A program made the position numbers and the translations under genes. The notes below the pieces were generated by a model. The model was not told the origin of the DNA, searched no databases, and saw only the letters and a program-made list of their open reading frames with translations. Below, one piece after another: positions 6,925-21,121 of a stretch of 64,000 nucleotides of DNA. Source of the stretch: an uncultured Cohaesibacter sp. (GTDB lineage: Bacteria; Pseudomonadota; Alphaproteobacteria; Rhizobiales; Cohaesibacteraceae); NCBI RefSeq assembly GCF_963678225.1, contig NZ_OY782764.1, forward strand, positions 2,113,001 to 2,177,000, written 5' to 3'. Position 1 is the stretch's first letter. Every line of letters begins with the position of its first letter.

Positions 6925-7871
6925 GCGTTTCCTCCATTTATCAAAGTCTCGACCTGCTTTCGGTCGGGAATGCTCTCCCAGCCGCTGCCACAAGCGCACT
7001 TGAGCGCTGCAGCGGCGCTTGCAAAGCGCGCGGCCTCCTCAATTGTCATTTTCTCGGAAAGTCCGAGGGTGAAGGCGCCATGGAAAATGTCGCCAGCCCC
7101 GTTGGTGTCTATCGGGTCTATCTTGAAGGCGGGCACATGGTGGATCTGCCCATCTTCACACCAGAAAAAGCCCCGCTCCCCATCGGTTACAGAAACGACG
7201 CCTCGGCACATGCCGTTCGCCTTCCTCAAGGCGTCGGACAGGTCGCTATGGTCGGTCAGGCGTCTCAGGCACGCAGCGGAAAAGACTAGATGCTCGGGCA
7301 AGGCCAGCAAATTATGCACGGCATTCATGTCGCCCACATCGGCATCCAGAACAGATACGATGCCTTGCCGGTTGGCCGCTTCAAAAAGAGCCGCCGCCCC
7401 CTGCCACCAGCTATAGTCTGCCAGTACGCCGGACAATCCGGTGACGTCCTCAAGCGGCAGCCAGTCTGCCTCATCACCCAGATTGCGGCCGATAAAACCA
7501 AGGGCGGTGCGTTCGCCTCCCTGATCGACCAATATGGTGCCCATCGGGCTGCGGCCGCCTTCGACCCGGGCCACGCCGTGGGTTTTGACTCCGCATTGGG
7601 ATAAGCGTTCGACGATCCGGTCGCCGACCTCATCCACGCCCAGCCTTCCCCAATAGGATACTTCCGCGCCCAGCTTGGAAGCCGCGCAGGCGGCTGTCGC
7701 TGCGATGCCGCCACCTGTCATCTTTACATCCATGACACGCATCTTGGTTGGCTTGTCAGGGATTTCAGGCAAATAGAGGATCGTATCCAAAAATGCGTTG
7801 CCGAGCGTCACAATGCGTGTCGACCCAGTCTTTTCAAATTCCATCAAAGGCGCAGATTCGTGAGCTTCCAT
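6921..7871 (-). CDS. PfkB-family sugar kinase, sulfofructose-kinase-like
   Basis: 316-residue ribokinase-fold kinase. Visible are the N-terminal GNAFLDTILYLP, the glycine motif TGGGIAATAACAASKLGA and the catalytic PfkB signature DTNGAGDIFHGAF. From memory the closest named enzyme is E. coli YihV (6-deoxy-6-sulfofructose kinase); the GVLADYSWW-GA and VSVLDADVGDM stretches match it well. It is first in the operon, with AAGGGAAG before the start, and is translationally coupled to the aldolase. No sulfoquinovosidase or isomerase is present, so a sulfosugar substrate is only one option; tagatose, fructose or an amino-sugar derivative are others. Confidence 0.82.
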   Translation of the reverse strand: MEAHESAPLMEFEKTGSTRIVTLGNAFLDTILYLPEIPDKPTKMRVMDVKMTGGGIAATAACAASKLGAEVSYWGRLGVDEVGDRIVERLSQCGVKTHGVARVEGGRSPMGTILVDQGGERTALGFIGRNLGDEADWLPLEDVTGLSGVLADYSWWQGAAALFEAANRQGIVSVLDADVGDMNAVHNLLALPEHLVFSAACLRRLTDHSDLSDALRKANGMCRGVVSVTDGERGFFWCEDGQIHHVPAFKIDPIDTNGAGDIFHGAFTLGLSEKMTIEEAARFASAAAALKCACGSGWESIPDRKQVETLINGGNA

Positions 7872-8482
7872 TGGTCTTCCCTTATTGAAAAGCTATGGAT
7901 CCACCACAGGTTCGCATGGGGTGGATGGCAACGCTTAACGGTGCTGGAAGCGTAGATTTGACCTTACTTGTTGTCAATAAAATTTACATGTAACATGTAA
8001 TTATATTTTACATGAAGAGAGTCTTGCGATTTTTTAGACAATTTGGTGCGCTAGGCGCATGAGACAACTGACGGTAACTGCAAAGGATTTTGCGACAGCC
8101 CCAATATGAGCGCAAGAAAAATAGGCCTGTGGACGAATGGCCCGTCGCTGATAAAACCAAAAAGAGGCGCAAAATTCTGCTCTTCATTGGTATTAAGTAG
8201 ATTGCTATAAGCGCCGTTGGAAAGTGACTAACAAGACTCTTTCCTGCCCGTCGGTTTGAGCGCTGTGGGCGGGAGTGCCGTCGCAAGACGCGTCTGGATT
8301 GAGGCGCCCGATGTCTGATTGCGAGGGGAGATAGGCTACTAAAAGGAGAGGAAATAAACAGACCTTGTAAAATAATTTATCAAGGTGGTGCCTTCGCTCT
8401 GGCTTGTTTGATTGTTTCCAACTACAAAGAGAGCGAGTTGTTATTGAGATTTTGAACCGAGTGGAAACCGCAAAGCTTGGAT
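7872..8482. other. Divergent control region between kinase operon and GntR gene
   Basis: About 600 bases without a convincing gene. It is AT-rich near 7965-8015, where the operator sits. Two short minus-strand frames (8008-8286 and 8205-8489) lack ribosome sites and family features and are not accepted. Confidence 0.6.
7984..8014. promoter_or_regulatory. Putative GntR operator: TTACATG-N3-CATGTAA plus extra half-site
   Basis: TTACATG (7984-7990) and CATGTAA (7994-8000) are a perfect inverted repeat around three bases, and a third TTACATG copy is at 8008-8014. The site lies 113 bases before the kinase start, between the divergent operon and its GntR gene, which is where a local repressor would bind. 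Confidence 0.65.
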
Positions 8483-9226
8483 ATGGCAAAAATACCGGTA
8501 ATGCCTGCGCGCAAACAGAAACTGTCCGATACGATCTATGCTCATATTCTCTCGCAGATTACTGCCGGGGAATATTCGTCGGGAGACAAGCTGCCTTCCG
8601 AAGCGGAGCTCTCTACGACCTTCCATGTCTCTCGCCCCATCGTGCGCGAGGCGCTATCGCGGCTGGGCACCGACGGCCTCATCTATTCCAAACGCGGCAT
8701 CGGTTCTTTTGTGGCGATCAAGCCCTCCAAGCGGCTGACAGACTTTGCCAATGCATTCGATTTGTCCCGCTTTATCCGTTCCTTTGAACCGCGCATCGTT
8801 CTGGAAGTGGAAGCTGTGCGGCTGGCTGCGACCCGGCGTACCCGGGCAGAAGTGGAAGAGATCGCAGAAAGCGTCGAGGCTCTCGACAAGGCGATCGCCA
8901 AGGGGGAGTTGGGTCAGAAGGAAGATATCGCTTTTCACGATGCCATAGCACGGGCAGCGCATAATGATTTCTTTGTCGATCTGCTCACAGATCTGCGCGC
9001 TCCAGTGATGGAAACCATGAATATCGGTCTGGAGCTGGCCCGCGAGGCCGCGCCGACCCGCCGCCTGCGCATCATTGAAGAGCATTCGCGCATTCGCGAT
9101 GCGATCGACACCAAGGACGGAGACACGGCAGCAGGCTACATGAAATATCACCTGCTACAGGCGCGCGCTGCCATGCTGGATGCCCATCACCTCGAAAGCC
9201 GCCTCAGCAGTGTTGAGGAAGAGTGA
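8483..9226 (+). CDS. GntR-family transcriptional regulator (FadR/FCD subgroup)
   Basis: About 247 residues. The N-terminal winged helix is clear: GDKLPSEAELSTTFHVSRPIVREALSRL followed by the wing LIYSKRGIGSFVA. The C-terminal FCD ligand domain shows the helical metal/ligand pattern LEVEAVRLAA, EDIAFHDAIARAAHN and EEHSRIRDAI. An ATG at 8483 or a TTG at 8477 can serve as start; neither has a strong ribosome site. It is divergent from the kinase/aldolase/ABC operon, so it is the likely repressor of that operon, released by a substrate or phosphorylated intermediate. Confidence 0.88.
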   Translation: MAKIPVMPARKQKLSDTIYAHILSQITAGEYSSGDKLPSEAELSTTFHVSRPIVREALSRLGTDGLIYSKRGIGSFVAIKPSKRLTDFANAFDLSRFIRSFEPRIVLEVEAVRLAATRRTRAEVEEIAESVEALDKAIAKGELGQKEDIAFHDAIARAAHNDFFVDLLTDLRAPVMETMNIGLELAREAAPTRRLRIIEEHSRIRDAIDTKDGDTAAGYMKYHLLQARAAMLDAHHLESRLSSVEEE

Positions 9227-9279: not shown

Positions 9280-10173
9280 TTAGCGCGTATGCTGCTTGAT
9301 GATGTCTTTGACCCGCTGAATGGCATCTTCGCTCTTCTTGCTGTTGTGCCACAGGTCTGATGTCACCTTCTGATGCATCTCCACGGATTCGTGGGCAGAG
9401 GTGATGGTGCCAACGCCCACCCGGATATTGGCATAGAGGCCCAGACGGAACGGGCTCATGGCGACCACGGAGCTGGGACCATTCTTCAGAATCTGGAAGC
9501 TGGCACCCGGCAGGGAATCTTCCACCAGTCCGATTTGCACGCCCATGGGCTGGTCAATCATCATGCGCAAGACATTCTCTGCTTCGATCATTGCCGCTTC
9601 TCTGCGCTGGGCCACCACATCCTCCGGCAGGCCATATTTGCCAACAAGGCCTGTAACCAGCATTTGCTCTAGCTCCAGGGCAGAGACGAGGCTCACAATG
9701 CTTGGTCTGCGATAGAGGTAGGCCTCTTTGCGCTGGTAGAGGATTTCCAGAATCTGGGCAATCTCTTCATCAAGGCTGTGTTGATTCGGTGCGGCTTCGG
9801 GAACGCTTTCATGCAATAGTTGCTTGAGCAGCGAGTCGAAATTCTCTGTTGTGAGCAGAAAGGCCACGGGGCCGAACAGAGCTGTGATCTGGTCCGCGAC
9901 CGCTTCGATCTGCCGCATCCGCTCGAAAAACTCTTTGGCCGAGCCAATGAACTCCGAGCCGACGCCGAAGAGAGAGGCAATAGACACATCAAAAAAGTCG
10001 GCAATCTTGCCCAACGCGTCAACCCGGATTGGGTTGCCGGCCTCATAGCGATAGATGGCGGCGCGAGACAAGCCTGTGGCGGATGCGACTTCTTCAGGTG
10101 TTAATCCCTTGCCAACACGAACCAATCTCAGCCGATCACCAATATCAAGAGCCGTTTCGTACTGCTTTGCCAT
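9280..10173 (-). CDS. XRE-family regulator, paralogue of the one at 20015-20905
   Basis: 297 residues. Residues about 10-65 form a Cro/CI helix-turn-helix (LTPEEVASATGLSRAAIYRYE). The C-terminal 200 residues are an unassigned domain, containing FERMRQIEAVADQI, SIVSLVSALELEQ and SPFRLGLYANIRVGV, that matches the second XRE protein along its whole length. It is divergent from the nucleoside transport operon, with a shared operator between them. A metabolite-sensing role is inferred from the long C-terminal domain. I do not recognise a characterised homologue. Confidence 0.85.
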   Translation of the reverse strand: MAKQYETALDIGDRLRLVRVGKGLTPEEVASATGLSRAAIYRYEAGNPIRVDALGKIADFFDVSIASLFGVGSEFIGSAKEFFERMRQIEAVADQITALFGPVAFLLTTENFDSLLKQLLHESVPEAAPNQHSLDEEIAQILEILYQRKEAYLYRRPSIVSLVSALELEQMLVTGLVGKYGLPEDVVAQRREAAMIEAENVLRMMIDQPMGVQIGLVEDSLPGASFQILKNGPSSVVAMSPFRLGLYANIRVGVGTITSAHESVEMHQKVTSDLWHNSKKSEDAIQRVKDIIKQHTR

Positions 10174-10277
10174 GCATCCGTCTTTCTAACTTACTGAATA
10201 GTCCGCAATAGCCTTACATTAAAGCCATTGCAATTTGAAGAGACCTCAAATCGGGTTCTTCATGCCCTTTATGTTGC

Positions 10278-10301
10278 GGCTGAGGCTGAGGCTGAGGCGG
10301 A
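10278..10301. repeat. Short tandem hexamer repeat
   Basis: GGCTGA occurs three times in tandem followed by GGCGGA, in the non-coding gap between the divergent XRE and transporter genes. No function seen. Confidence 0.6.
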
Positions 10302-10362
10302 AGGCACGTTAGCACGCAAGAGGTGGTCATGCAAAATATCGCACGTATCGCGAAGGAAGTGT

Positions 10363-10388
10363 GAATATTCTCAAATTTGAGAATATTC
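10363..10388. promoter_or_regulatory. 26-bp perfect palindrome, XRE operator
   Basis: Reads the same on both strands over 26 bases (GAATATTCTCAAA and its complement). The core TTCTCAA-AT-TTGAGAA (10368-10383) recurs before the pyrK operon and before the second XRE gene. It lies between the first XRE gene and the divergent transporter operon. The rest of this 329-base gap (10174-10502) holds only the hexamer repeat. Confidence 0.75.
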
Positions 10389-10502
10389 TTGACATGGAGA
10401 ATGGGGCATGGAAAACATAGCAAAAGCGACGCTCTTCATTTCTCACCAAGGCCCCCTTCCAGCTTGAGACCGTCGCGCCAAAGAGAACGCGGGAGAACTG
10501 CA

Positions 10503-11249
10503 TTGATTAAAATAGAACAGCTCAGCAAGATATATGGGCAAGGAGACGATCAGGTTGTGGCGCTGGAGCCCTTGGACCAGCAGATCAATGAAGGCGAATT
10601 CGTTTCCATCATCGGCCCGTCTGGCTGCGGAAAATCGACTCTCCTGCGCTTGATTGCCAGTCTGGAAGCGCCCACCTCGGGCAGCGTAACGCTGGAAACT
10701 GCCAATCTGAAACGGCCGGTCGGCTTTGTTTTTCAGGATGCGGTGTTGCTGCCCTGGAAAACCGTTGCTGAGAATATTCGTTTTCCGCTGGACACGACCG
10801 GTGTTTCGCGCATGCAGGCCAACGAAAAAGTAGCTGAGCTTGTGGAACTGGTTGGTCTCAAGGGCTTTGAGAAATCCCTGCCCAAGCAGCTATCCGGCGG
10901 TATGCGTCAGCGCGCGGCCATTGCTCGTGCTCTGGCCGATGATCCTCCGATCCTGCTGATGGATGAACCCTTCTCTGCAGTCGATCTGCTCACCCGTGAG
11001 ACGCTCAATGATGAGCTGAGCCGGATCTGGCAGAAAACCGGCAAGACCATTCTTCTGGTCACCCACTCGGTTGAGGAAGCCGCCTATCTGGGCAGTCGCG
11101 TCATGGTCATGAGCCCCCGTCCCGGACGCCTCAAGGCCACCTATGATGTAGACCTTGCCCAGCCGCGTGGCGAGCAGACAAAAAGAGATCCGAAGTTCCT
11201 CGATCTCGTCTCCGAATTGCGCACCCTGATGCGGGAGATGACGTCATGA
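10503..11249 (+). CDS. NitT/TauT-type ABC transporter ATP-binding subunit (nucleoside system)
   Basis: 248 residues from a TTG at 10503, preceded by CGGGAGAA; the longer frame from 10377 would run through the operator and carries a non-family N-terminus. Walker [16 protein letters not shown]-loop [14 protein letters not shown], signature [15 protein letters not shown] and Walker [13 protein letters not shown] place it in the SsuB/TauB group. It begins a six-gene operon with two permeases, a binding protein, a nucleoside phosphorylase and phosphopentomutase. The context points to import of a nucleoside or pyrimidine. Confidence 0.9.
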
Positions 11250-12013
11250 AGGGGCGCATCAAACCCGTTCTGGAATATAGTGCAGCGCTTCTGGTTCTGC
11301 TTGCCGCATGGTGGTATGTGAGCGGCCCGATGGGCATGCCCGCCTATCTGTTGCCGTCTCCGGCTTCGGTGGCAGAATTGCTCTGGTCCATGCTGATGAA
11401 TGGCAAGCTGCTGCCCCATCTTGCCTTTACGGTGCAGAATATCGTTATAGGTTTGGTGGTTGGCTCTGTGTTTGGTGTGTTGCTGGCCTATGCCTTTTTC
11501 AAGACGCCAGCTCTGAGTGACTATCTCGAAGGTCCGCTGGTGGTGATCCAGACCGCGCCCAAGATCGCGCTCGCCCCCCTTATCATCATCTGGTTCGGTC
11601 TGGGCCTTACCGCCAAGATCGTCCTTATCTTCAGTCTTGTCTTCTTCCCTGTTTTTGCCGGAGCCCTTGCGGGGTTCCGCTCGATAGACAGTCGCTTGCA
11701 TGACCTTGCTCAGTTGATGAATCTGTCACGCTTTCAGCGATTCCTGCGGATCGACTTGCCAGCCGCTCTGCCGGGTATTTTCGTCGGAGTCAAGATTGGC
11801 GCAATTCAGGCTCTCGTCGGGGCAATTCTGGCCGAATGGATGTCCGGCTCTGATGGTCTGGGCTATCTCATGACCTTCGCCACCGCCACCTACAAAACAC
11901 CCTTGCTCTTTGGCGCCGTTCTGCTGACTGCGTTTTTGGGGCTCGCGATGCATGCGATTTTAAACGAGATCGAAGCGCGCTTTCTTTCCTGGAGCACCCC
12001 GAATGAGCACTAG
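11246..12013 (+). CDS. NitT/TauT-type ABC permease 1
   Basis: SsuC-family inner-membrane permease, 255 residues. The ATPase-contact loop [22 protein letters not shown] is visible, as is [15 protein letters not shown]. It overlaps the ATPase gene as ATGA and the phosphorylase gene by 11 bases, so translation is coupled. A second related permease lies three genes on, suggesting a heterodimeric channel. Confidence 0.9.
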
Positions 12014-12797
12014 TTCAAAACCGACAGCGGAACATCCTTTTACCGATGGACGACCGCCGCATCTGCCATGTGGTCCGGGCGATATCTGCGAAGATGTGCT
12101 GCTGCCGGGCGATCCGGATCGGGTCGCACTTCTGGCCGCGCGTCTTGACGATGTGCGCGATTTTGGCCGCCGTCGTGAATTTGCGGTCATCTCCGGCACC
12201 TATAAGGGTCATCCGCTGACCATCTGCTCCACCGGCATTGGCGGCTCCTCCACCGAGATTGCCCTGATGGAATTGTCCCTGTTGGGTGCCAAGCGTGTGG
12301 TGCGTACGGGGGGGATGTCCTCGCTTGTGGCAGAAATTCCTACAGGTGCTTTCCTCTGCGTGGAAAAGGCGACAGGCTATTCCTCTCTCGCCAAGCTTTA
12401 TTCCGGCGATGAGAATGCCACGGCGTATGCGGACCGTGATTTGTATCTGGCTCTGCTGAATACCAATCTTGGCGACGACACACGGATCGTCTCCGGCATG
12501 GTAGGCAGCACGGACAGCTACTATTACGGACAAGACCGGACCCAGAAGCCATCAAGCGGCACGGCCCCCAAAATCAGCTATCTTAAAGACCTGCAAGAAC
12601 GCGGCGCTGTTGGCGTGGATATGGAATGCCAGACCGTGCTGTCCGTTGCGCCGAGCCTGGGGTTGAAGGCGGCTTGTCTTCTGGGAGTCCATGGCAACCG
12701 TGCAACAAATGATTGGCTCGTCGACTATGAGCCCACACAACGCAAACTTCTCGATATTGCTGGTATCGCGTTGGCCAGATCTAAAGACAATCACTAA
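12003..12797 (+). CDS. Uridine phosphorylase-like nucleoside phosphorylase
   Basis: 264-residue PNP/UDP-family enzyme. It shows LPGDPDRVALLA near residue 36, the phosphate-binding STGIGGSSTEIALMEL and RTGGM, and the ribose-binding VGVDMECQTVL. Such enzymes split a nucleoside with phosphate into base and (deoxy)ribose-1-phosphate in the cytoplasm. Phosphopentomutase, encoded in the same operon, would take the sugar phosphate. The family features favour a pyrimidine nucleoside (uridine type), but specificity cannot be read safely. Confidence 0.85.
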   Translation: MSTSSKPTAEHPFTDGRPPHLPCGPGDICEDVLLPGDPDRVALLAARLDDVRDFGRRREFAVISGTYKGHPLTICSTGIGGSSTEIALMELSLLGAKRVVRTGGMSSLVAEIPTGAFLCVEKATGYSSLAKLYSGDENATAYADRDLYLALLNTNLGDDTRIVSGMVGSTDSYYYGQDRTQKPSSGTAPKISYLKDLQERGAVGVDMECQTVLSVAPSLGLKAACLLGVHGNRATNDWLVDYEPTQRKLLDIAGIALARSKDNH

Positions 12798-12816
12798 ACC
12801 GAAAAGGGAAACCATC

Positions 12817-13812
12817 ATGTCTTTCACCCTCAAAGGACTTGCAGCCTCGCTTGCGCTTGTGGCTGCATCCGTTTTCACATCAGGTGCTTCGGCTGCTGAT
12901 AAAGTTGTTCTGCAGATCGACGGCAACGTCGTTCCTTTCTACGCTCCGCTTTATGCCGGCGTTGAAAATGGCTTCTTTGCCGATCAGGATATCGAAGTTG
13001 AATTCCTCTATGGTGGCGCTTCCGACATTCTGACCAACATCGCTGCAGGCAACGTGGATTTCGGCTTCCCCAATGGTGACGCTGTTGTTGCTGCTGCATC
13101 CAACGGCCTGCCGATCAAGGTCGTTCACACCACCTACCAGCGCGGCATTGGCGCTCTGCTTGCCAAGAGCGAAAGCGGCATCAAGACCTATGCAGATCTC
13201 AAGGGCAAAACCGTTGCAGTGACCTCTCTGGGCAGCCCGAACTATCTTCAGCTGCAGGTTGGTCTGGCAAAGGCCGGTCTTTCTGTTGACGACGTCAAGG
13301 TTGAAGTGGTTTCCTCCGGTGCGATCGTACAGACGCTGCAGTCTGACGATGTTGATGCCATCATCTTCTCCGAGCTGCGTAAATATGCACTGGAAGCCAA
13401 TGGCTTCGACGTTACCATGATCCTCTCCAACGACTTCCTGCCATCCTTCGGCAACGTGCTGGTAACCAGCGCAGAGAAGCTGGCTGACAATCCGGATCTC
13501 GTCAAACGCATGACCAATGCAGTCAGCGCTTCCTACCAGTGGGTGATCGATGGTCACATTGATGACGCTCTGAAGATCTCCATGGACAAATACACCCCGA
13601 CCTGGGTTGACCAGACTGCAATGCTGTCCACTGCCTTTAAAAATACCTTTGTTGCTTCCGTATGGCAGAGCGATCTGACCAAGGAAAAAGGCCTTGGCGC
13701 AGCCGATCTGGCCGCATGGCAGAACAACATTGATATTCTCTCTGAATATGGTGTTATCTCTGGCAGCGTAAAAGCCGCTGACTTCGTTGTCGATCCATCT
13801 GATATCAAGTAA
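12817..13812 (+). CDS. NMT1/THI5-like periplasmic binding protein of the nucleoside importer
   Basis: 331 residues with a signal peptide ending TSGASA. The start at 12817 has AAGGGAA just upstream; a longer frame from 12691 is inside the phosphorylase gene and rejected. The family pattern is FYAPLYAGVENGFFADQDIEVEF, then GNVDFGFPNGDAVV and LKGKTVAVTSLGSPNY. Relatives bind pyrimidines such as HMP-type thiamine precursors, nitrate/taurine or riboflavin. Next to nucleoside enzymes, a nucleoside or pyrimidine ligand is inferred. Confidence 0.88.
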   Translation: MSFTLKGLAASLALVAASVFTSGASAADKVVLQIDGNVVPFYAPLYAGVENGFFADQDIEVEFLYGGASDILTNIAAGNVDFGFPNGDAVVAAASNGLPIKVVHTTYQRGIGALLAKSESGIKTYADLKGKTVAVTSLGSPNYLQLQVGLAKAGLSVDDVKVEVVSSGAIVQTLQSDDVDAIIFSELRKYALEANGFDVTMILSNDFLPSFGNVLVTSAEKLADNPDLVKRMTNAVSASYQWVIDGHIDDALKISMDKYTPTWVDQTAMLSTAFKNTFVASVWQSDLTKEKGLGAADLAAWQNNIDILSEYGVISGSVKAADFVVDPSDIK

Positions 13813-13818
13813 TCGACC

Positions 13819-14556
13819 ATGTTTTTGAAAGCCATCCTTGGCCTCGTAGGAATCACCGCGCTTTGGGGCGCGGCGGTTCCGATTTTCGATGTGCCACACT
13901 ATCTGCTTCCCGGGCCGATTGACGTTGCCGAACGCCTCATCTTCCTCTTTCAGCGGGGTGATCTGGCATGGCATATTTATGTGACGCTCTCCGAAGTCTT
14001 CGGGGGATTTGTCCTCGGGGCCGTGGTGGGCATTGCAGCGGCGCTCGCCTTTGCGCGCTTCCCGTTGATCGAGCGCGTACTGACGCCGCTTATCCTGCTT
14101 CTGCAGACCATCCCGAAAATCGCAATCGCGCCGCTTCTGCTGTTGTGGCTTGGTTTGGGGGCCGCACCCAAGGTTGCCCTCGTTGCGGTGGTTACCTTCT
14201 TCCCTGTCATGACCGCGATGCTTTCCGGCATCCGTTACATGAATAAATCCTATGCCGATCTTGCGCATGTCTTGCGCCTGTCGCCATGGCAGCGCTTCTG
14301 GCATATCGAATTGCCTGCCGCCATTCCAACCCTGTTTGCCGGGGCCACCGTGGCCACAACTCTGGCCATGACTGCTGCGGTCATCGGCGAGCTGATGGGG
14401 GCCAACAAGGGCATGGGCTTCGTTCTGGCAACAGGTCAGGAAAATGCCGATACGGCGACGGTCATGGGCATGGTGATTCTGCTGTCCTTCGTTGGATGGG
14501 CTCTGTTTGCCATTCTTGATTTCGCACGCAGGCGCGTTGAGGACCGGTTCTTATGA
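13819..14556 (+). CDS. NitT/TauT-type ABC permease 2
   Basis: 245-residue SsuC-family permease with the contact loop YADLAHVLRLSPWQRFWHIELP and KIAIAPLLLLWLGLG. It follows the binding-protein gene by 6 bases and overlaps deoB as ATGA. It is clearly related to, but distinct from, the permease at 11246, so the importer probably has two different membrane subunits. Confidence 0.9.
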   Translation: MFLKAILGLVGITALWGAAVPIFDVPHYLLPGPIDVAERLIFLFQRGDLAWHIYVTLSEVFGGFVLGAVVGIAAALAFARFPLIERVLTPLILLLQTIPKIAIAPLLLLWLGLGAAPKVALVAVVTFFPVMTAMLSGIRYMNKSYADLAHVLRLSPWQRFWHIELPAAIPTLFAGATVATTLAMTAAVIGELMGANKGMGFVLATGQENADTATVMGMVILLSFVGWALFAILDFARRRVEDRFL

Positions 14557-15779
14557 CCAATACAGCATCTCTCCTTGAGCGCAGGGTGTTTCTCTGCGTC
14601 CTCGATTCTGTCGGATGTGGCGGCGCACCTGATGCCGCGGCTTTTGGTGATGAGGGCGCCAACACGCTTCTGCATATTGCTGAGGCTTGTAGCAGGGGGG
14701 AATGTGAAGATGGTCGGCATGGGCTGTTGCATCTACCCAATTTGGCCCACATGGGTCTTGGAAGCTGCATCAATCTCGCTTCGGGCTCTCGTGCGCCGGG
14801 CATTGCCGACGCGCCGCAAGAGGCCAACTGGGCCGTTTTGCAAGAGGTCTCCAAGGGCAAGGACACCCAGACCGGACATTGGGAACTGGCCGGGCTGCCT
14901 CTAGCCAAAGACTGGACCTATTTTCCCGATACCGATCCGGCCTTTCCGGAAGATCTGATGCAGGAATTCATGGCTCGTGCCGGGCTTGAAGGCACCCTTG
15001 CCAATATTCATGGCTCAGGCACAGAGATGATTGATCGCTTTGCCGAGGAACATCTGAAAACCGGCTATCCGATCACCTACACCTCGGCTGACAGTGTGTT
15101 CCAGATCGCTGCGCACGAAGAAAGCTTCGGGCTGGAAAGACTGTATGAGATTTGCAAAATCGCGGCGGATATTTTCCATCCGCTCGGTGTTGGACGTGTG
15201 ATTGCCAGACCCTTTGTCGGCACAGTGGAAACCGGTTTTGAGCGCACCAAGAACCGAAAGGATCTGGCCATCAAACCGGCAGAGCCAACCATCTGTGATC
15301 GCGTAATCGCCAAAGGGGGCGATGTGCGCAGCCTCGGCAAGATTGCCGACATCTTTGCCATGCGGGGTATTTCGGTTGTCGGCCCGAAAGCGGATGATAT
15401 GGGACTGGTTGATCAGCTACTGGATGCCTGCGACACGGCCAAGAGCGGCGATCTGGTCTTTGCCAATTTCGTCGAGTTTGACAGCCATTATGGACACCGC
15501 CGCGACATTTGCGGCTATGCCAAGGCGCTCGAGCGGTTTGACCGGCGTGTGCCCGAGATCCTTGCCAGACTGAAGGCGGGAGATCTTCTGTTATTCACGG
15601 CAGACCATGGCAATGATCCCACATGGCACGGCAACGACCACACGCGTGAACGTGTACCCCTGCTGATCCATGAGGTACCGCATGGCTCACAATCCCTGAG
15701 CATCAAGCCAGAGGGCACTCAAGTGATCAAGCCCTTCGGCTTTGTGGCCGATCTGGTTGCCGGGCATCTGGGCTGCTAG
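14553..15779 (+). CDS. deoB: Phosphopentomutase
   Basis: 408 residues, the usual length. Metal and phosphate sites of the family are visible: VLDSVGCGGAPDAAAFGDEGANT at the N-terminus, KGKDTQTGHWE, DSHYGHRRD and TADHGNDPTWHGNDHTRE. It converts (deoxy)ribose-1-phosphate to the 5-phosphate, feeding the pentose phosphate pathway. Coupled by ATGA overlap to the second permease, it completes nucleoside import and breakdown in one operon. Confidence 0.95.
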   Translation: MTNTASLLERRVFLCVLDSVGCGGAPDAAAFGDEGANTLLHIAEACSRGECEDGRHGLLHLPNLAHMGLGSCINLASGSRAPGIADAPQEANWAVLQEVSKGKDTQTGHWELAGLPLAKDWTYFPDTDPAFPEDLMQEFMARAGLEGTLANIHGSGTEMIDRFAEEHLKTGYPITYTSADSVFQIAAHEESFGLERLYEICKIAADIFHPLGVGRVIARPFVGTVETGFERTKNRKDLAIKPAEPTICDRVIAKGGDVRSLGKIADIFAMRGISVVGPKADDMGLVDQLLDACDTAKSGDLVFANFVEFDSHYGHRRDICGYAKALERFDRRVPEILARLKAGDLLLFTADHGNDPTWHGNDHTRERVPLLIHEVPHGSQSLSIKPEGTQVIKPFGFVADLVAGHLGC

Positions 15780-15827
15780 GCGCGTCACAACAAGCTGCGC
15801 GCCTCCTTGCTGCCAACTATCCGTTTG

Positions 15828-15853
15828 AGCGAAGGGCCTGATAGCCCTTCGCT
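15828..15853. terminator. Hairpin between convergent genes
   Basis: AGCGAAGGGC / GCCCTTCGCT is a perfect 10-bp stem with a CTGATA loop, 50 bases after deoB and 60 bases from the end of the facing gene. No T run, so it is probably an mRNA end or weak two-way terminator. Confidence 0.5.
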
Positions 15854-15915
15854 GACGCGATCTTCAAGGCTGGATTGCCCATAAGCGCAATGCCAAAGCC
15901 AAAGAGCAATCGGCC

Positions 15916-16245
15916 TTAAGAGGCCGAAGAGATCTCTTTGACAATTTCCTGAGAAATCGAGTTCAGCGCAGCAACCTGATCTTGCGCTGTACCAGTGGAA
16001 AAGGCTTCGTCAAGCAGTTTGGTGTAGCGTTCGATGCGGTCGATCTGGTCCTTTGCGACGCTGCTGCTAAGGGGTTCGCGGTCATAATTGTCGGCGAAAT
16101 CCTGCGTTATGATGCTGATGAGGAAATAGGGAGCAGCAAAGTCTGGATTTTCCAGAGCGCTTTCCCGTGCGACGCTGGCGCATTTCTTGTAGGCGCTGAC
16201 GCCCTTGCTGCCATCAATGAGGATGTCGTGGAATTTTTTGAACAT
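15916..16245 (-). CDS. 109-residue protein of unknown function
   Basis: Starts MFKKFHDILIDGSKG, chosen because AAAGG lies 9 bases before the ATG at 16245; a longer frame from 16362 overlaps the hydrolase gene and is rejected. The rest is mostly helical, with the central PDFAAPYFLISIITQDFADNYDRE and a C-terminal acidic/serine-rich tail. No signal peptide or known motif was recognised. It lies 103 bases after the amidohydrolase gene on the same strand and may be co-transcribed, but a link to pyrimidine breakdown is not supported by the sequence itself. Confidence 0.6.
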   Translation of the reverse strand: MFKKFHDILIDGSKGVSAYKKCASVARESALENPDFAAPYFLISIITQDFADNYDREPLSSSVAKDQIDRIERYTKLLDEAFSTGTAQDQVAALNSISQEIVKEISSAS

Positions 16246-16348
16246 GTGATTGCCTTTCATTAGGGTCTTATCTGGTTTGTTGGGTCTATGTGCCTGCCCG
16301 TTATTGGGGGCGGGAGGCACAGTCAGAGATGTTGTCTCTTGCTCTTCC

Positions 16349-17641
16349 TCATCCTTGCGCATCCATCAGATAGGCGTAGATGATCTCCGAGGCGATCATG
16401 AAGTCGGAAACGTCCATCGCTTCTGCCGGATTGTGAGAGCCATTTCTGTTGCGCACGAAAACCATGCCTGTCGGCACGCCCGCATTGGCAAAGACAGCCG
16501 CATCATGGCCACCGCCGGAAGGCATGATAAAAGGCTCTAGCCCCACCTGCTGCATGGCGCCAGACATGGCCTCGACAATGGCAGGGTCGCACAGGGCAGG
16601 GGCGGTGCTCAGTTTTTCACCAAGCTCGAAGCGCACCTTTCGCTCTCGCTCGATGGTGCGGATATCCTGTGCCAAAAGATCATGCATGCCATCGAGCACT
16701 GTGGCGTTCTGGCTGCGCACATCGAGGCTGAAGTCCACTTGATCGGGAATGCGCGAGAGGGCGTGGCGTTCCACATCCGTTGAAATCATGCCGCTGGTCA
16801 AAACAAGGTCATCGCCCAGTTGGACGACCGTCAGCCAGCTTTCATCGAGGCGGGTCAAGAGATCTGCCATCGCCAGAACCGGATCGCGGCGGAAAGCGCG
16901 CGGAACGGCACCGGAATGCCCCGCTTCGCCAACGCAACGAATGGTCTTGTAACGGAAGTTGCCCCGAATGCCCGAAACCACGGCGGCTGGGAGGTCTTTC
17001 TGGACCAGCAGCGGGCCTTGCTCGATATGCAGTTCGATATAGGCAAGAACCGAGCTGGCGTCCATAAGCGGCGTGCCATCGCGCACGGGTGCCATATCGA
17101 TGCCGATGCTTTCCATATGCGCATCCAGCGTCTGATTGTCGCCCTTGTGGCGTGTGCGCAGCTCAGCCTCGCTCAACCGGCCCAACAGGGCCTTGGAAGC
17201 AATGTAGCATGGCCCGAACCAGGCGCTTTCCTCGGCTCGCATAGCCAGAACCTTAACCGGCCGCGCAAAAGAGGTGCCTTCGCTCTGGGCGCGTACAAGG
17301 CACATCAAACCGGCAATGACACCGGCCAGTCCATCAAAGTTACCACCTTGCGGCACCGTATCCACATGAGAGCCGACCAATACAAACGCATCAGCCTCCG
17401 CATCGCAGGGAAGGGAGAAGACCGCGTTCTGGCCCGCATCATAGGTGACAGTCAGCCCGTGGCTCAGGCCGAACTGTTCCAGATAGGCGAGGGTCTTTGT
17501 CTCAAGATCGGAGAAGGCAGGGCGGCTGATGCCTTGCGTGTCTGCAGAAAAAGCGGCGATTTCGTCAAAGAGCTGAGCCGCCATTGCTTCATAGTCTGCC
17601 GCTGTGAGGGCAGGGCTCTGTGTCATGGAAACCATGGTCAT
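16349..17641 (-). CDS. M20-family N-carbamoyl-amino-acid amidohydrolase (candidate ureidosuccinase / beta-ureidopropionase)
   Basis: 430 residues of the hydantoinase/carbamoylase group. Metal and catalytic residues are seen in VGSHVDTVPQGGNFDGLAG, AEESAWFGPC and PSGGGHDAAVFA, with substrate-side residues in IELHIEQGPLL. The family removes the carbamoyl group from N-carbamoyl amino acids or allantoate. Being coupled (ATGA) to a class 1B dihydroorotate dehydrogenase, its likely substrate is N-carbamoyl-aspartate (orotate breakdown) or N-carbamoyl-beta-alanine (uracil breakdown). A separate cyclic amidohydrolase is needed between the two steps and is not in the window. Confidence 0.85.
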   Translation of the reverse strand: MTMVSMTQSPALTAADYEAMAAQLFDEIAAFSADTQGISRPAFSDLETKTLAYLEQFGLSHGLTVTYDAGQNAVFSLPCDAEADAFVLVGSHVDTVPQGGNFDGLAGVIAGLMCLVRAQSEGTSFARPVKVLAMRAEESAWFGPCYIASKALLGRLSEAELRTRHKGDNQTLDAHMESIGIDMAPVRDGTPLMDASSVLAYIELHIEQGPLLVQKDLPAAVVSGIRGNFRYKTIRCVGEAGHSGAVPRAFRRDPVLAMADLLTRLDESWLTVVQLGDDLVLTSGMISTDVERHALSRIPDQVDFSLDVRSQNATVLDGMHDLLAQDIRTIERERKVRFELGEKLSTAPALCDPAIVEAMSGAMQQVGLEPFIMPSGGGHDAAVFANAGVPTGMVFVRNRNGSHNPAEAMDVSDFMIASEIIYAYLMDAQG

Positions 17642-18582
17642 TCTGCTGCCTCCGCAAAGAACACACCGTCGCTGGCTTCTTCATCCCTAATGGAGCCAGT
17701 GAGCTCGGAGACGCTTGAAAGCCCCTCTGTGCGAAGAAATGCTTCCAGTTCGCTGATAAGCCGCACCATGACCGTCGGGCTGATAAAGGTTGCCGTGCCA
17801 ATCTGTACGGCACTTGCTCCGGCAATCAGATATTCGACAACATCCTCTACTGTGGCGATGCCGCCGCAGCCGATCACAGGAATGGAGACCGCTTTGGCGC
17901 ATTGATAGGTCATGCGCAGGGCAATCGGTTTGAGGGCCGGGCCGGAAAGGCCACCCATGAGATTGCCCAGCTTGGGCTTGCGTGTGTGGATGTCAATGGC
18001 CATGGACAGCATCGTATTTGCCACAACGAGAGCATCCGCTCCGGCGCTCTCTGCCGCTTGAGCCACTTCGGTTGTTTCGCCCGTGTTGGGCGTCAGCTTT
18101 GCCCAGAGTGGCAGATCTGTTGCTGCCCGCAGCTTGCGCATGACCGCTTCGGTGGTCGAGGGGCGCATGGCAAAGGCCTTGCCGTCTGCCTCGATATTCG
18201 GGCAGGAAATATTCACCTCGATGGCTGCCACGCCGGGCACGCTCACCTCTTCGCAGATCTGCGCGAATTCATCTGCGCTACCAGCCGAAATGCTAACCAC
18301 CAGCGGCGTCTGATATTGATCATAAAAGGGGATGACATTGGTCTTGAAATAGTCGACACCCTTGCTGGGAATGCCGATCGAATTCAGCATTGAGCCGCGC
18401 ACTTCACAGACACGCGGGGTCGGGTTGCCGCCTCTGATGTCACGGGTGATCGTCTTGGTCACATGCGCGCCCAGCGCATCGATATCAAACAGCTTTGCAC
18501 AGTCTTCCGAGAAGGTGCCCGAGGCAGGCATGATCGGGTTTTTCAAACGCAAAGCCCCGATATTGACTGAAAGATCTAACAT
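17638..18582 (-). CDS. pyrD: Dihydroorotate dehydrogenase, class 1B catalytic subunit (probably catabolic)
   Basis: 314 residues. The active-site motif is NISCPN, with cysteine as class 1 enzymes have, not the serine of the quinone-dependent class 2. FMN-binding stretches are PVIGCGGIATVEDVVEYLIAGASAVQIGTA. It overlaps pyrK upstream by 7 bases and the amidohydrolase downstream by 4. Class 1B enzymes use NAD through PyrK and can reduce orotate. Alphaproteobacteria usually carry a class 2 enzyme for biosynthesis, so an operon with a carbamoyl hydrolase suggests the reductive, degradative direction (inference). Confidence 0.85.
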   Translation of the reverse strand: MLDLSVNIGALRLKNPIMPASGTFSEDCAKLFDIDALGAHVTKTITRDIRGGNPTPRVCEVRGSMLNSIGIPSKGVDYFKTNVIPFYDQYQTPLVVSISAGSADEFAQICEEVSVPGVAAIEVNISCPNIEADGKAFAMRPSTTEAVMRKLRAATDLPLWAKLTPNTGETTEVAQAAESAGADALVVANTMLSMAIDIHTRKPKLGNLMGGLSGPALKPIALRMTYQCAKAVSIPVIGCGGIATVEDVVEYLIAGASAVQIGTATFISPTVMVRLISELEAFLRTEGLSSVSELTGSIRDEEASDGVFFAEAAE

Positions 18583-19391
18583 CCCATTGCCTCCTGAAGA
18601 TTGAATACGGGGCCTTCCTTGCAGACCCGCTCATGAATGATTTTATCCTTGCGCCGGAAGGACCGGACGCAGCACTGACACATGCCCACGCCGCAAGCCA
18701 TCTGTTGCTCAAGAGCGATCTGGCCGGGAATGCCATGACGGGCGCAAATGGTTTGCAGCATCGTCAGAAGCCGGTTGGAACCGCAGGTATAAAAGGCGTC
18801 TACGCCCTCCGCCTGGATATGCGCTTCGATCAACTGCTCAAGCGCCTCAACGCCCGATGTCGCTTCAGAATCTGTGACCGTGATGACCTCTGCCCCGAGC
18901 GCCTTGAAATGATCGATGGACATAAGCACATCAGGAGAACGTGCACTGCATACGGCGGTGAGTTTACGCCCCATCTGCTGGGCCTTTTGCGCCAACGGGG
19001 CCAAAGTCGCCAGACCAACACCGCGAGCCACGACCATCAGCTTTTGCCAGTCGTCCTGGATGTCGAACCCATGCCCCAAGGGGCCGACCACATTAAGGTC
19101 TTCGCCAGCGTCAAGGGCAGAGAGAGCAGCCGTGCCTTCGCCCGCAATCTTGTAGAGAAAATGCAGCTCGCCCGCTTCGGGATAGAAGCCGTAGATGCTC
19201 ATGGGGCGTCGCAGGTAAGGCTGCAAATCCCCTTTAGTCGGACACAAGAGATGGAAGAACTGTCCCGGCTCGCATTTGAGAATATGAGACGGTGCATCCA
19301 GTATGATGAGCCTGTATTCGCGATTGATCGGCTCATTGCTTTTGACTCTACAGATGGTCTCGAAAATGGGAGTCAGGGTCATATCGGTCAC
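18576..19391 (-). CDS. pyrK: Dihydroorotate dehydrogenase electron-transfer subunit
   Basis: 271 residues. FAD binding is shown by YLRRPMSIYGF, the NAD-binding region by MVVARGVGLATLAPL, and the [2Fe-2S] cluster by CGVGMCQCC with a fourth cysteine in RVCKEGPVF. It passes electrons between NAD(H) and the FMN of PyrD. First gene of the three-gene operon; the operator at 19827 lies 436 bases before the start, so either the leader is long or the transcription start is close to that site. Confidence 0.88.
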   Translation of the reverse strand: MTDMTLTPIFETICRVKSNEPINREYRLIILDAPSHILKCEPGQFFHLLCPTKGDLQPYLRRPMSIYGFYPEAGELHFLYKIAGEGTAALSALDAGEDLNVVGPLGHGFDIQDDWQKLMVVARGVGLATLAPLAQKAQQMGRKLTAVCSARSPDVLMSIDHFKALGAEVITVTDSEATSGVEALEQLIEAHIQAEGVDAFYTCGSNRLLTMLQTICARHGIPGQIALEQQMACGVGMCQCCVRSFRRKDKIIHERVCKEGPVFNLQEAMGC

Positions 19392-20014
19392 GGAACTGTT
19401 TGGGAAAAAGAAAAGACTCTCCCTTCACTCCAAAGGCATTTGGAATGAAGAAAGCGGTTGCAGGGAGATTTTGGGGAACGGTTGGGACCGAAAACCTATC
19501 TGAAGCTAAGTGTTAAGCTTCGGCGATGGTCTAGAAAGTGGCGCTTTCGCCAAATCGCGTCATGGGAAGCGCGATGTTTTACAACACCAGCTGTACGCAA
19601 TGTCGAGGTGACAGCATGGAAAAGGCGAGCCACTGGGACGGCGCTCTGGGCAGTGGCGTGATGCTTGAAAAACCGGATGTCTAAAACCCGCAATGTCTGC
19701 TTGGCAGATGCCGAAAAGTCGGCGGAGTGGCCAAAGCGCAAAAAGGGAAGATTCATCGCCTGTTCCTAGTTTCGCTGTTGCTTAAAAAAAGAGATTAAAC
19801 CCGTAGATCATGATTGGTCAAGAAATTTCTCAATTTTGAGAATTTATTATAGCGTATCTCGAATATGGAACAATTTGATGACAATTGCCTTGAAATTAGG
19901 CAAGAGATGCCGACTGCCGTAATCCGTGCATTGGAGAAAGATGAACGTTGGTTCGTCGGCCACTGGGCGTAATGCGCAGAGAAGGTGGAGGAAAAACTAC
20001 CGCCAGGCTGAAAA
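19392..20014. other. Control region before pyrK operon
   Basis: 623 bases with no accepted gene. It contains the XRE operator at 19827. A minus-strand frame at 19496-19756 shows no family features or ribosome site. Confidence 0.6.
19827..19842. promoter_or_regulatory. XRE operator copy before the pyrK operon
   Basis: TTCTCAA-TT-TTGAGAA, a perfect 7-2-7 inverted repeat identical in its arms to the site at 10368-10383. It is between the second XRE gene and pyrK, both on the minus strand. Confidence 0.75.
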
Positions 20015-20905
20015 TCAGGCGCGCAAAATGGTCTTTTCAATAAAGTCTGCAGCCTGATCCCCTTTGAGGCTTCGCCGCCAGAGTTTGTCTGTCATGGCGC
20101 CATAAAGGGTCGTGGCTTCCGGAGCCGCCGAAATGGTGGCAACGCCAAGACGGATATTGGCAAAGGCCCCCAATCGGAAGGGGCTGACGGCGACCTGTGA
20201 TCGGTCGGCCTGTTTGAAAATCTGGAAGCTGGCACTTGGCATGGAATCCACCACGAGACCAATTTGCGTGCCGATTGGTGGTTCGCGCAACATCTTGACG
20301 ATATTCTCGATTTCCGTTCTGGCTACCTCACGGCGCAGCTTCATGTCCGCCTCGGGCGGATCATAGGCGCCGATGAAGCCGTTACGGAAAAACTGCTCCA
20401 GCTCCGCTGCAGATACAAGGCTGATGATGCTCGGCCTTCGGGTCTGATAGCAGGCCTTACGCGCATGCAGGATGTCCAGAAGGGCATCAATATCCTGCAG
20501 TGCCTTGGCGCGGTCTTCGACATCAAGCGGGATGCTTTCCTTGAGAACCTCCGGGAGAATGGCATCGTAGGCGTCAGTGGTGAGCAGATAGGATACCGGG
20601 CCGAAAAGAACGAGAATCTGGTCTACCTTCTCTTCGATCTGGCGCATGCGTTCAAAGAAGCTGACAGCCGAGGCAATATACTCAACCCCGACGCCAAGCA
20701 GAGTGGGAAGAGAAATCCCCAACAGGGTCGCGATCTTGCCCAGCGTATCGACGCGGATCGGCTGCCCCAGTTCGTAGCGATAGATGGCTGCGCGTGAAAT
20801 GCCTGTCTTTTGAGCGACTTCCTCGGGGGAGAGCCCTGCTCCAACCCGAAATGCCTTGAGCCTCTGACCAACTTCCTCGATCGAGATGCCTTGCCCTATG
20901 TCCAT
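20015..20905 (-). CDS. XRE-family regulator, paralogue of the one at 9280-10173
   Basis: 296 residues. Helix-turn-helix LSPEEVAQKTGISRAAIYRYE near residue 25, then the same unassigned C-terminal domain as its paralogue: FFERMRQIEEKVDQI, SIISLVSAAELEQ, IGTQIGLVVDSMPSASFQI and SPFRLGAFANIRLGV. It is upstream of, and on the same strand as, the pyrK-pyrD-amidohydrolase operon. A one-mismatch copy of the operator sits about 100 bases before its start, suggesting self-control. The ligand is probably a pyrimidine intermediate, by context only. Confidence 0.85.
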   Translation of the reverse strand: MDIGQGISIEEVGQRLKAFRVGAGLSPEEVAQKTGISRAAIYRYELGQPIRVDTLGKIATLLGISLPTLLGVGVEYIASAVSFFERMRQIEEKVDQILVLFGPVSYLLTTDAYDAILPEVLKESIPLDVEDRAKALQDIDALLDILHARKACYQTRRPSIISLVSAAELEQFFRNGFIGAYDPPEADMKLRREVARTEIENIVKMLREPPIGTQIGLVVDSMPSASFQIFKQADRSQVAVSPFRLGAFANIRLGVATISAAPEATTLYGAMTDKLWRRSLKGDQAADFIEKTILRA

Positions 20906-21003
20906 GAAACAACCTCATTTTATGACCGGGCCAAGCGACAATGACTCGGAGCGAACAAATCACGCCTATGCTTGTGTATGCCATCTTGAAAGGTGGCAAT
21001 CAA

Positions 21004-21019
21004 TTCTAAATTTTGAGAA
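21004..21019. promoter_or_regulatory. XRE operator copy before the second XRE gene
   Basis: TTCTAAA-TT-TTGAGAA differs by one base from the 10368 and 19827 copies. It lies 99 bases before the start of the XRE gene (minus strand). The gap 20906-21344 otherwise holds the two polyamine-type sites listed next. Confidence 0.65.
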
Positions 21020-21121
21020 TATTCTTTATCGAGAGACAATGCAGTGGATTTGACTCTTATGGGAAACATGCCCGCGAGCGGAACCGGAATGGCACCCTTA
21101 ATAAGAAATGTCATACGATTG

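Follow-up and report, generated by a model that had tools for sequence, protein, structure and literature searches.

A candidate orotate-catabolism regulon in Cohaesibacter with a conserved operator set in register with the −35 box

A 64,000-nucleotide stretch of the genome of an uncultured Cohaesibacter sp. (RefSeq assembly GCF_963678225.1, contig NZ_OY782764.1, positions 2,113,001 to 2,177,000; hereafter, the window) carries genes for two related XRE-type regulators, XRE1 and XRE2. They lie beside an operon for an ABC transporter, a divergent nucleoside phosphorylase and the phosphopentomutase DeoB, and beside a second operon for PyrK, PyrD and an amidase of the M20 family. The palindrome TTCTCAA-N2-TTGAGAA recurs at both operons, which raises the question of whether they form one regulon and which compound it would consume. 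The original prediction, made from the letters of the window, was a pyrimidine-catabolism regulon with its own regulator family. We consider it likely that the locus is an orotate-catabolism regulon under the control of XRE1 and XRE2.

In the mechanism that we propose, XRE1 and XRE2 would be one-component regulators whose XRE helix-turn-helix (HTH) binds TCTCA-N4-TGAGA, or a slightly longer form, and whose non-catalytic C-terminal domain, probably phospholipase-D-like (PLD-like), responds to a compound of the pathway, orotate being the likeliest. At the catabolic promoters the operator abuts the −35 box, and orotate would relieve repression. PyrK and PyrD would act as an orotate reductase and convert orotate to dihydroorotate, a dihydroorotase encoded elsewhere would open the ring, and the M20 amidase would cleave N-carbamoyl-L-aspartate to aspartate, CO2 and ammonia. 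The ABC transporter would import a nucleoside and the divergent phosphorylase would split it, with DeoB handling the ribose-1-phosphate; this nucleoside would be orotidine if its base enters the same route.

Operator sites and the regulators that go with them

The 16-mer TTCTCAANNTTGAGAA was found at the three places of the window that had been predicted (Table 1), twice without mismatch and, at site 3, with one. At up to two mismatches, these three matches compare with 0.20 expected, and three were reached in none of 100 shuffles. Site 1 lies within an exact 26-base-pair (bp) palindrome, likewise as predicted, where the ABC operon has its promoter-like sequence, and site 2 lies at the corresponding sequence of pyrK. 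At site 3, upstream of XRE2, TCTTTATC stands in place of the TCTTGACA or TCTTGACC of the other sites, with TTTATC at the expected −35 position, and this site may be what is left of a divergent promoter.

The genome-wide search that had been suggested for the 16-mer was performed on 4.94 Mb in two contigs. With at most one mismatch, six places were found, namely the three window sites and three inside open reading frames (ORFs) whose translations were read as those of rplC, rpoC and a beta-glucosidase. When two mismatches were allowed, 27 places compared with 13 for the reversed pattern, so the weak copies were taken as mostly due to chance and the two-mismatch genome copies were not used as evidence. 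A composite pattern of the 16-mer and the −35 box occurred exactly at window sites 1 and 2 only; at three mismatches, site 3 also matched, as did a single place on the other contig.

Relatives were collected in one scan of 84,980 species genomes, which yielded 68 loci. One of these (L097), with an HTH match only, was dropped, leaving 67 relatives (L030–L096), two of them Desulfovibrionaceae and the others Alphaproteobacteria; L030 is nearly identical to the window. Because the 16-mer came from the window, the relatives test it largely independently. With two mismatches allowed, 62 matches were found in the 1,279,665 bases of the related loci, three of them in L030, against one for the reversed pattern, and in 41 of the 67 loci the 16-mer lies at most 260 bp upstream of the regulator. 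Read toward the divergent catabolic operon, the operator is followed by three bases and then by TCTTGAC with the −35 box, which places the operator centre 13.5 bp upstream of the −35 hexamer in a nearly fixed register. A de novo palindrome search returned one operator half together with the −35 box, not the palindrome (18.85 bits, against 9.75 and 9.95 in shuffled sequences), and thereby displays the fixed register. In 18 loci with regulators under 75% alike, conservation was seen in the columns of the operator and the −35 box and was missing from most flanking ones; since these loci had been chosen by pattern match, it is this difference from the flanks that counts.

At up to three mismatches, 56 composite sites were counted in the relatives. 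Within −80 to 480 bp of a target gene, 51 were assigned to the TRAP binding protein DctP (28), PyrK (16), the ABC ATPase (6) or the M20 amidase (1), leaving five unassigned; an assigned site is present in 45 of the 67 loci. Among the remainder, a site is present in L051, L054 and L066 but was left unassigned by the distance rule, and 12 are the loci L083–L094. Nine of the 11 loci L083–L093 keep the TRAP transporter with PyrK, PyrD and the M20 amidase, the composite was found in none of the 11 at up to three mismatches, and L084 and L091 carry the 16-mer with two mismatches; the operator of this group may differ. Further half-site-like stretches were seen in the relatives at roughly fixed distances, TCxCAA about 28 bp upstream and TTGAnA at positions 27–32 downstream of the operator start, the latter overlapping the promoter spacer. 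In L059, a composite with two mismatches (8931) precedes an ORF that, by eye, begins like a HAD-type phosphatase and is a possible further regulon member.

Operator and regulator also go together in a sample of 20 genomes of the window's family. Twelve exact composites were found, two each in G000, G003, G005, G010, G012 and G017 and none in the other 14; a full-length regulator and a PyrD at 84% or more were present in the same six genomes. Regulator matches had been reported in nine genomes, of which those in G002, G006 and G013 were dropped for covering the HTH end or a short stretch only (residues 12–129 in G006), as was one partial match each in G003 and G012 besides the full-length one. 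Only exact copies of the composite were used, as at three mismatches it matched in 16 genomes, including ones without the regulator. XRE2 was found at 98–100% in G005, G010 and G017, with G003 and G012 more distant, and the XRE1-type match of G010 came in two pieces.

Chance palindromes without a regulatory role are, in our judgement, barely conceivable. The three intragenic copies and the 27 two-mismatch places of the window's genome speak for it, and site 3 is the most open to such an origin. Chance would account neither for conservation at a fixed place across families nor for exact composites that occur only in genomes with a full-length regulator.

XRE1 and XRE2 align without gaps over 283 residues at 52% identity, in keeping with the predicted full-length match, and no third regulator was found in the genome at expect values (E) up to 0.001. 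XRE2 is 98% identical to a C. marisflavi protein and XRE1 89% identical to one of C. haloalkalitolerans. A tree of 57 proteins placed XRE1 in a clade of six with the regulators of L082, L080, L075, L095 and L096 (support 100/98), whose loci carry the ABC operon, except for L080, where the shortness of the contig leaves this undecided. XRE2 lies outside this clade, on an open fork, with rhizobial regulators nearest. The two belong to separate lineages, so that the term 'paralogous' in the original prediction needs care. A recent local duplication of the regulator was considered and rejected because of the tree, though the fork that holds XRE2 is open.

These lineages would suit two independent regulons, with XRE1 acting on the ABC operon only, XRE2 on pyrK only, and the shared sequence stemming from shared ancestry of the binding domain; the association of the XRE1 lineage with the ABC operon and the presence of two family members in six of the 67 loci point the same way. 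So do 13 rhizobial loci (L031, L033, L034, L036, L037, L038, L040, L042–L046 and L049) in which one regulator lies between divergent PyrK and ABC operons. There, the composite precedes PyrK in all 13 at zero or one mismatch; even with three mismatches allowed, no copy precedes the ABC ATPase. The 16-mer is present at up to two mismatches in the regulator–ABC gap of five. Against such a division stand G003 and G012, each with a single regulator, 89% identical to XRE1, and yet two exact composites, and L082, with one regulator in the fetched stretch and exact composites ahead of both PyrK and the ABC ATPase. Because of these patterns, a single regulator could probably serve both operons in these three cases, and two separate regulons appear unlikely to us; the single-regulator genomes make cross-regulation directly testable. 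As a separate observation, L037 (19126–20028) and L040 (19441–20352) each encode a further family member, 45–46% identical to XRE2, 8–9 kb from the first and beside other ABC transporter genes, the binding protein in L040 being NMT1-like by eye. The family may therefore control other uptake systems as well.

Enzymes, transporters and orotate

With BLAST thresholds set in the script, PyrK, PyrD and the M20 amidase were found together in the fetched stretch of 59 of the 67 relatives, DctP and DctM of a TRAP transporter in 48, the phosphorylase with the ABC binding protein in 20 (with DeoB in 15 of these), and both transporter types in five. Eight loci lack part of the enzyme set: L057 and L080, on short contigs, and L063, L067, L073, L088, L090 and L094. 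Of these, L063 and L067 are the Desulfovibrionaceae, in which the M20 amidase passes and PyrK and PyrD fall under the thresholds, and L094 holds the regulator, the M20 amidase, PyrC (449 bits; cut-off 293) and PyrE (394 bits; cut-off 245) in a row. This gene content, the operator in its −35 register and the co-occurrence in six genomes uphold a pyrimidine-catabolism regulon, whose substrate the following evidence sharpens to orotate and, tentatively, orotidine.

The DctP that adjoins the regulator in L039 matched PDB entry 4nn3 with 446.8 bits, the next chain reaching 172.9, and the DctPs of the 48 TRAP loci are 57–100% identical to it. Entry 4NN3 reportedly stems from a structural survey of TRAP binding proteins by Vetting and co-workers. 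According to two articles, the protein, from Maridesulfovibrio salexigens, was bound to orotic acid (PMC11668362, 2024), and orotic acid is among the ligands newly found for TRAP proteins (review PMC5812351). The window has an NMT1-type ABC transporter instead of this close homologue of the L039 protein.

PyrD of the window passes the cut-off of the class 1B family (Table 1) and scores 139.6 bits against PreA (PRK08318; cut-off 335), a cut-off that no protein of the genome exceeded. The Cys and Lys that we take to be the active-site residues of class 1B PyrD were located in the alignment with 1ep1, the PyrD subunit of dihydroorotate dehydrogenase B. PyrK adjoins PyrD and is a near full-length match. 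As the genome has another PyrD, of class 2 (356 bits; cut-off 200), and a PyrC (372 bits; cut-off 279), the PyrK–PyrD pair looks surplus to synthesis. The simplest route would be orotate reduction, ring opening and hydrolysis of N-carbamoyl-L-aspartate. Clostridium oroticum degrades orotate by orotate reductase, dihydroorotase and ureidosuccinase, the same chemistry as that proposed here, where it would come with a TRAP or an ABC operon, an M20-family amidase and a dedicated XRE regulator. The M20 protein passes the cut-off of its carbamoylase family and is a candidate ureidosuccinase; context, with PyrC and PyrE next after it in L094, suggests N-carbamoyl-L-aspartate as its substrate.

The phosphorylase is the genome's only match to TIGR01718, and nothing in the genome passes that uridine phosphorylase cut-off (280). 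Uridine phosphorylase of E. coli uses three arginines for phosphate and a Gln/Arg pair for the base, and in the alignment the phosphorylase of the window shares all of these. When 21 phosphorylases, from the window and 20 loci, were aligned with this enzyme (1k3f), a member of the same family, Gln166, Arg168 and Arg223 were kept and GQDR was present in all 21; RxGGMS in place of RIGTTG and His-Gly in place of Ile220-Val221 were likewise found in all 21. The imported nucleoside would most simply be orotidine, because its base would go to PyrK and PyrD. From this context and the active-site changes, the enzyme is a candidate orotidine phosphorylase, and the ABC operon would tentatively feed orotidine into the orotate route. 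The complete chain of ABC uptake, a new orotidine phosphorylase defined by the RxGGMS clade, PyrK/PyrD as orotate reductase, the M20 amidase as ureidosuccinase and a dead PLD-like domain as orotate-binding sensor is tentative and, taken as a whole, falls a little short of an even chance.

These genes could also be read as a pathway for uridine and uracil, in which uridine is imported and phosphorolysed to uracil, PyrK/PyrD is a dihydropyrimidine dehydrogenase and the M20 amidase a beta-ureidopropionase. Retention of Gln166 and Arg168 in the phosphorylase would fit, as would the presence of N-carbamoyl-beta-alanine amidohydrolase and beta-alanine synthase among the solved M20 relatives. This pathway is nevertheless improbable and was rejected in favour of orotate catabolism: PyrD lies far below the PreA cut-off and above that of class 1B, no dihydropyrimidinase was seen in the window operons, and the phosphorylase lacks the RxGT motif. 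Moreover, the TRAP transporter replaces the ABC transporter in 43 loci, with DctPs like the homologue of the orotate-bound protein in L039, and PyrC and PyrE follow the M20 amidase in L094.

Proposed sensor domain and sign of control

Pfam assigned only the HTH in XRE1 and XRE2 (HTH_3, 42.4 and 48.4 bits; cut-off 23), and HTH_3 was matched in all 51 family members at E up to 0.1. The original prediction had left the C-terminal domain unassigned, and no Pfam cut-off was reached by that of XRE2 or by 30 domains scanned singly, XRE1 included. When 51 C-terminal domains were scanned alone at E up to 0.1, DUF5753 was matched in four, DUF3597 in one and rve_3 in one. In the 30 single scans, at E up to 1, weak DUF5753 matches appeared in five, all below the cut-off of 23.4 bits (L072, 19.3; L066, 18.7; L079, 13.9; L031, 13.4; L048, 12.4), with residues 45–198 of the L072 domain colinear with positions 34–177 of the 178-position profile. 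DUF5753 was matched in neither XRE1 nor XRE2, nor anywhere in the window's genome at E up to 1. We treat the weak matches as a hint of distant kinship rather than as family membership, with the L072 and L066 domains as a possible bridge to the XRE–DUF5753 regulators of Streptomyces. These occur in XRE/DUF397 pairs and measure 258–303 residues, with for instance the HTH at 16–72 and the C-terminal domain at 101–280 of 286 (PMC10364602). Layout and size are as in the XRE1/XRE2 family; the pathway is another, and no singly scanned member here exceeded 23.4 bits. A dedicated regulator family is thus supported, as the original prediction had it, although the DUF5753 matches make it less isolated than the words 'its own' suggest.

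Structure prediction, also suggested at the outset, added a weak fold match. AlphaFold modelled full-length XRE2 with a pLDDT of 86.0 and a pTM of 0.72, and its C-terminal domain alone with 88.4 and 0.86. Among the best 11 of the 50 Foldseek matches listed for this domain, three had E <0.001 and TM scores were 0.36–0.47; these 11 comprise the restriction enzymes SauUSI and NgoAVII, BJ-TSA-9 and FAM83-type proteins, phospholipase D, vaccinia F13 and polyphosphate kinase, all of which we take to be PLD-like. The HxKxxxxD motif was found in none of the 51 family sequences. Our best guess is that the domain is a non-catalytic PLD-like sensor. TrmB-type sugar regulators have a phospholipase-D-like domain, and a non-catalytic PLD-like ligand sensor is suggested in both, on a different DNA-binding domain; no TrmB family appeared in the full Pfam tables of XRE1 and XRE2 (for other family members, the tables listed the best 25 of 37 families).

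Another parallel in design is BzdR of Azoarcus, a repressor that combines an XRE HTH with a shikimate-kinase-like domain for binding of the inducer (PMC3602430). Common to both would be the N-terminal XRE domain, an enzyme-derived effector sensor, a length of about 300 residues and a catabolic operon controlled by a pathway intermediate; the C-terminal domain is shikimate-kinase-like in BzdR and resembles PLD-like proteins here. Membership of the BzdR/BoxR subfamily was considered and rejected: the shikimate-kinase-like domain was not found, PLD-like folds came first in the fold search, and NF006015 covered the HTH stretch only (21.5 and 24 bits; cut-off 204). The NCBIfam model PRK08154, for the anaerobic benzoate catabolism regulator, likewise matched only the HTH.

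Repression relieved by orotate is favoured modestly over activation, owing to the near-consensus −35 box, the half-site-like stretch over the spacer and the BzdR precedent. As an activator, the regulator would sit just upstream of the −35 box and recruit RNA polymerase when orotate is present. This is possible, if the less probable arrangement, and what speaks for it is the operator centre beside rather than over the core promoter, together with −10 regions that look weak by eye. A near-consensus −35 box is less needed at an activated promoter, however, the further TTGAnA stretch overlaps the spacer, and BzdR, with its XRE HTH and its sensor derived from an enzyme, is a repressor (PMC3602430).

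Several points weigh against orotate catabolism under this operator. The consensus of the composite was derived from the very loci in which it gave 83 matches at up to four mismatches, against three for its reversal, and 22 of the 67 loci have no copy that could be assigned to a target. By eye, window sites 1 and 2 have −10 regions that match poorly, and the rhizobial pattern, with no composite ahead of the ABC ATPase at up to three mismatches, means that the operator would govern the ABC operon less generally than it does PyrK or the TRAP genes. The comparison with 4NN3 was made for one DctP, that of L039, and the window's genome lacks a close orotate-type DctP, the best of 30 matches being 37% identical. 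PyrK remains below its cut-off at 133.4 bits, the sequence of PyrD does not show the direction of the reaction, and the fold match of the sensor domain is weak.

The design would be a conventional one, its regulator family being little known and one of its enzyme activities possibly new. Neither the regulon nor an orotidine phosphorylase was described among the listed matches of the literature searched, a search whose coverage mostly excluded subscription papers. Orotate is normally seen as a biosynthetic intermediate, which a recurrent regulon would here consume. If so, annotations such as PyrD, PyrK, 'uridine phosphorylase' and 'allantoate amidohydrolase' would at times denote catabolic roles, the regulon would supply an orotate sensor, and it would point to orotate, perhaps also orotidine, as nutrients that pass from one organism to another. 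In the regulator, an XRE base is combined with a sensor domain that may equal DUF5753, still a domain of unknown function by name; were that weak link real, the many Streptomyces XRE–DUF5753 regulators would have C-terminal domains of this same fold that sense small molecules.

Window features and neighbouring genes

Table 1. Features of the locus, in window coordinates (bits are given with family cut-offs).
Feature	Position	Strand	Evidence
XRE1 (regulator 1), XRE HTH and C-terminal domain, ABC-linked lineage	9280..10173	-	HTH_3 E 7.2e-11; 52% to XRE2
Operator 1, predicted; perfect 26-bp palindrome, core 10368-10383	10363..10388	.	Motif search, palindrome check
−35-like TTGACA, 5' of ABC operon, in register with operator 1	10389..10394	+	Register conserved in relatives
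ABC transporter ATPase	10503..11249	+	ABC_tran E 1.2e-34
ABC permease A	11246..12013	+	BPD_transp_1 E 1.2e-21
Divergent nucleoside phosphorylase, uridine-phosphorylase-like, candidate orotidine phosphorylase	12003..12797	+	PNP_UDP_1; TIGR01718 119 bits, cut-off 280
NMT1/THI5-like periplasmic substrate-binding protein	12691..13812	+	NMT1 E 1.7e-36
ABC permease B	13819..14556	+	BPD_transp_1 E 4.1e-33
Phosphopentomutase DeoB	14553..15779	+	PRK05362 470 bits, cut-off 256
M20 hydantoinase/carbamoylase-family amidase, candidate ureidosuccinase	16349..17641	-	TIGR01879 263 bits, cut-off 204
PyrD, class 1B dihydroorotate dehydrogenase catalytic subunit, candidate orotate reductase	17638..18582	-	PRK07259 353.3 bits, cut-off 269; 1ep1 E 6.4e-73
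PyrK-like electron-transfer subunit	18576..19391	-	PRK00054.1-3, 133 bits, below cut-off 219
−35-like TTGACC, 5' of pyrK, in register with operator 2	19816..19821	-	Composite-pattern search
Operator 2, predicted	19827..19842	.	Motif search
XRE2 (regulator 2), C-terminal domain modelled	20015..20905	-	HTH_3 E 9.7e-13
Operator 3, predicted, upstream of XRE2; TCTTTATC at 21023-21030 replaces −35-like sequence	21004..21019	.	Motif search

For the ABC ATPase, the TTG at 10503 was preferred as the start, as a longer reading from 10377 would overlap operator 1. The true start of the NMT1/THI5-like binding protein probably lies downstream of 12691.

Adjoining XRE1, the stretch 5884–9226 holds a tagatose-bisphosphate-aldolase-like gene, a ribokinase-like PfkB and a GntR-type regulator, with no composite operator at up to three mismatches. 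A small ORF of 148 residues (15916–16362), downstream of the M20 gene, had no NCBIfam match at E up to 1e-20. No Rfam match was found in 5000–26000 of the window, including the stretch ahead of pyrK. There, the gap between operator 2 and the pyrK ORF (19392–19815) measures about 420 nucleotides, compared with 427 in L030 and 407 in L082, and it is the place that the TRAP genes occupy in many relatives.

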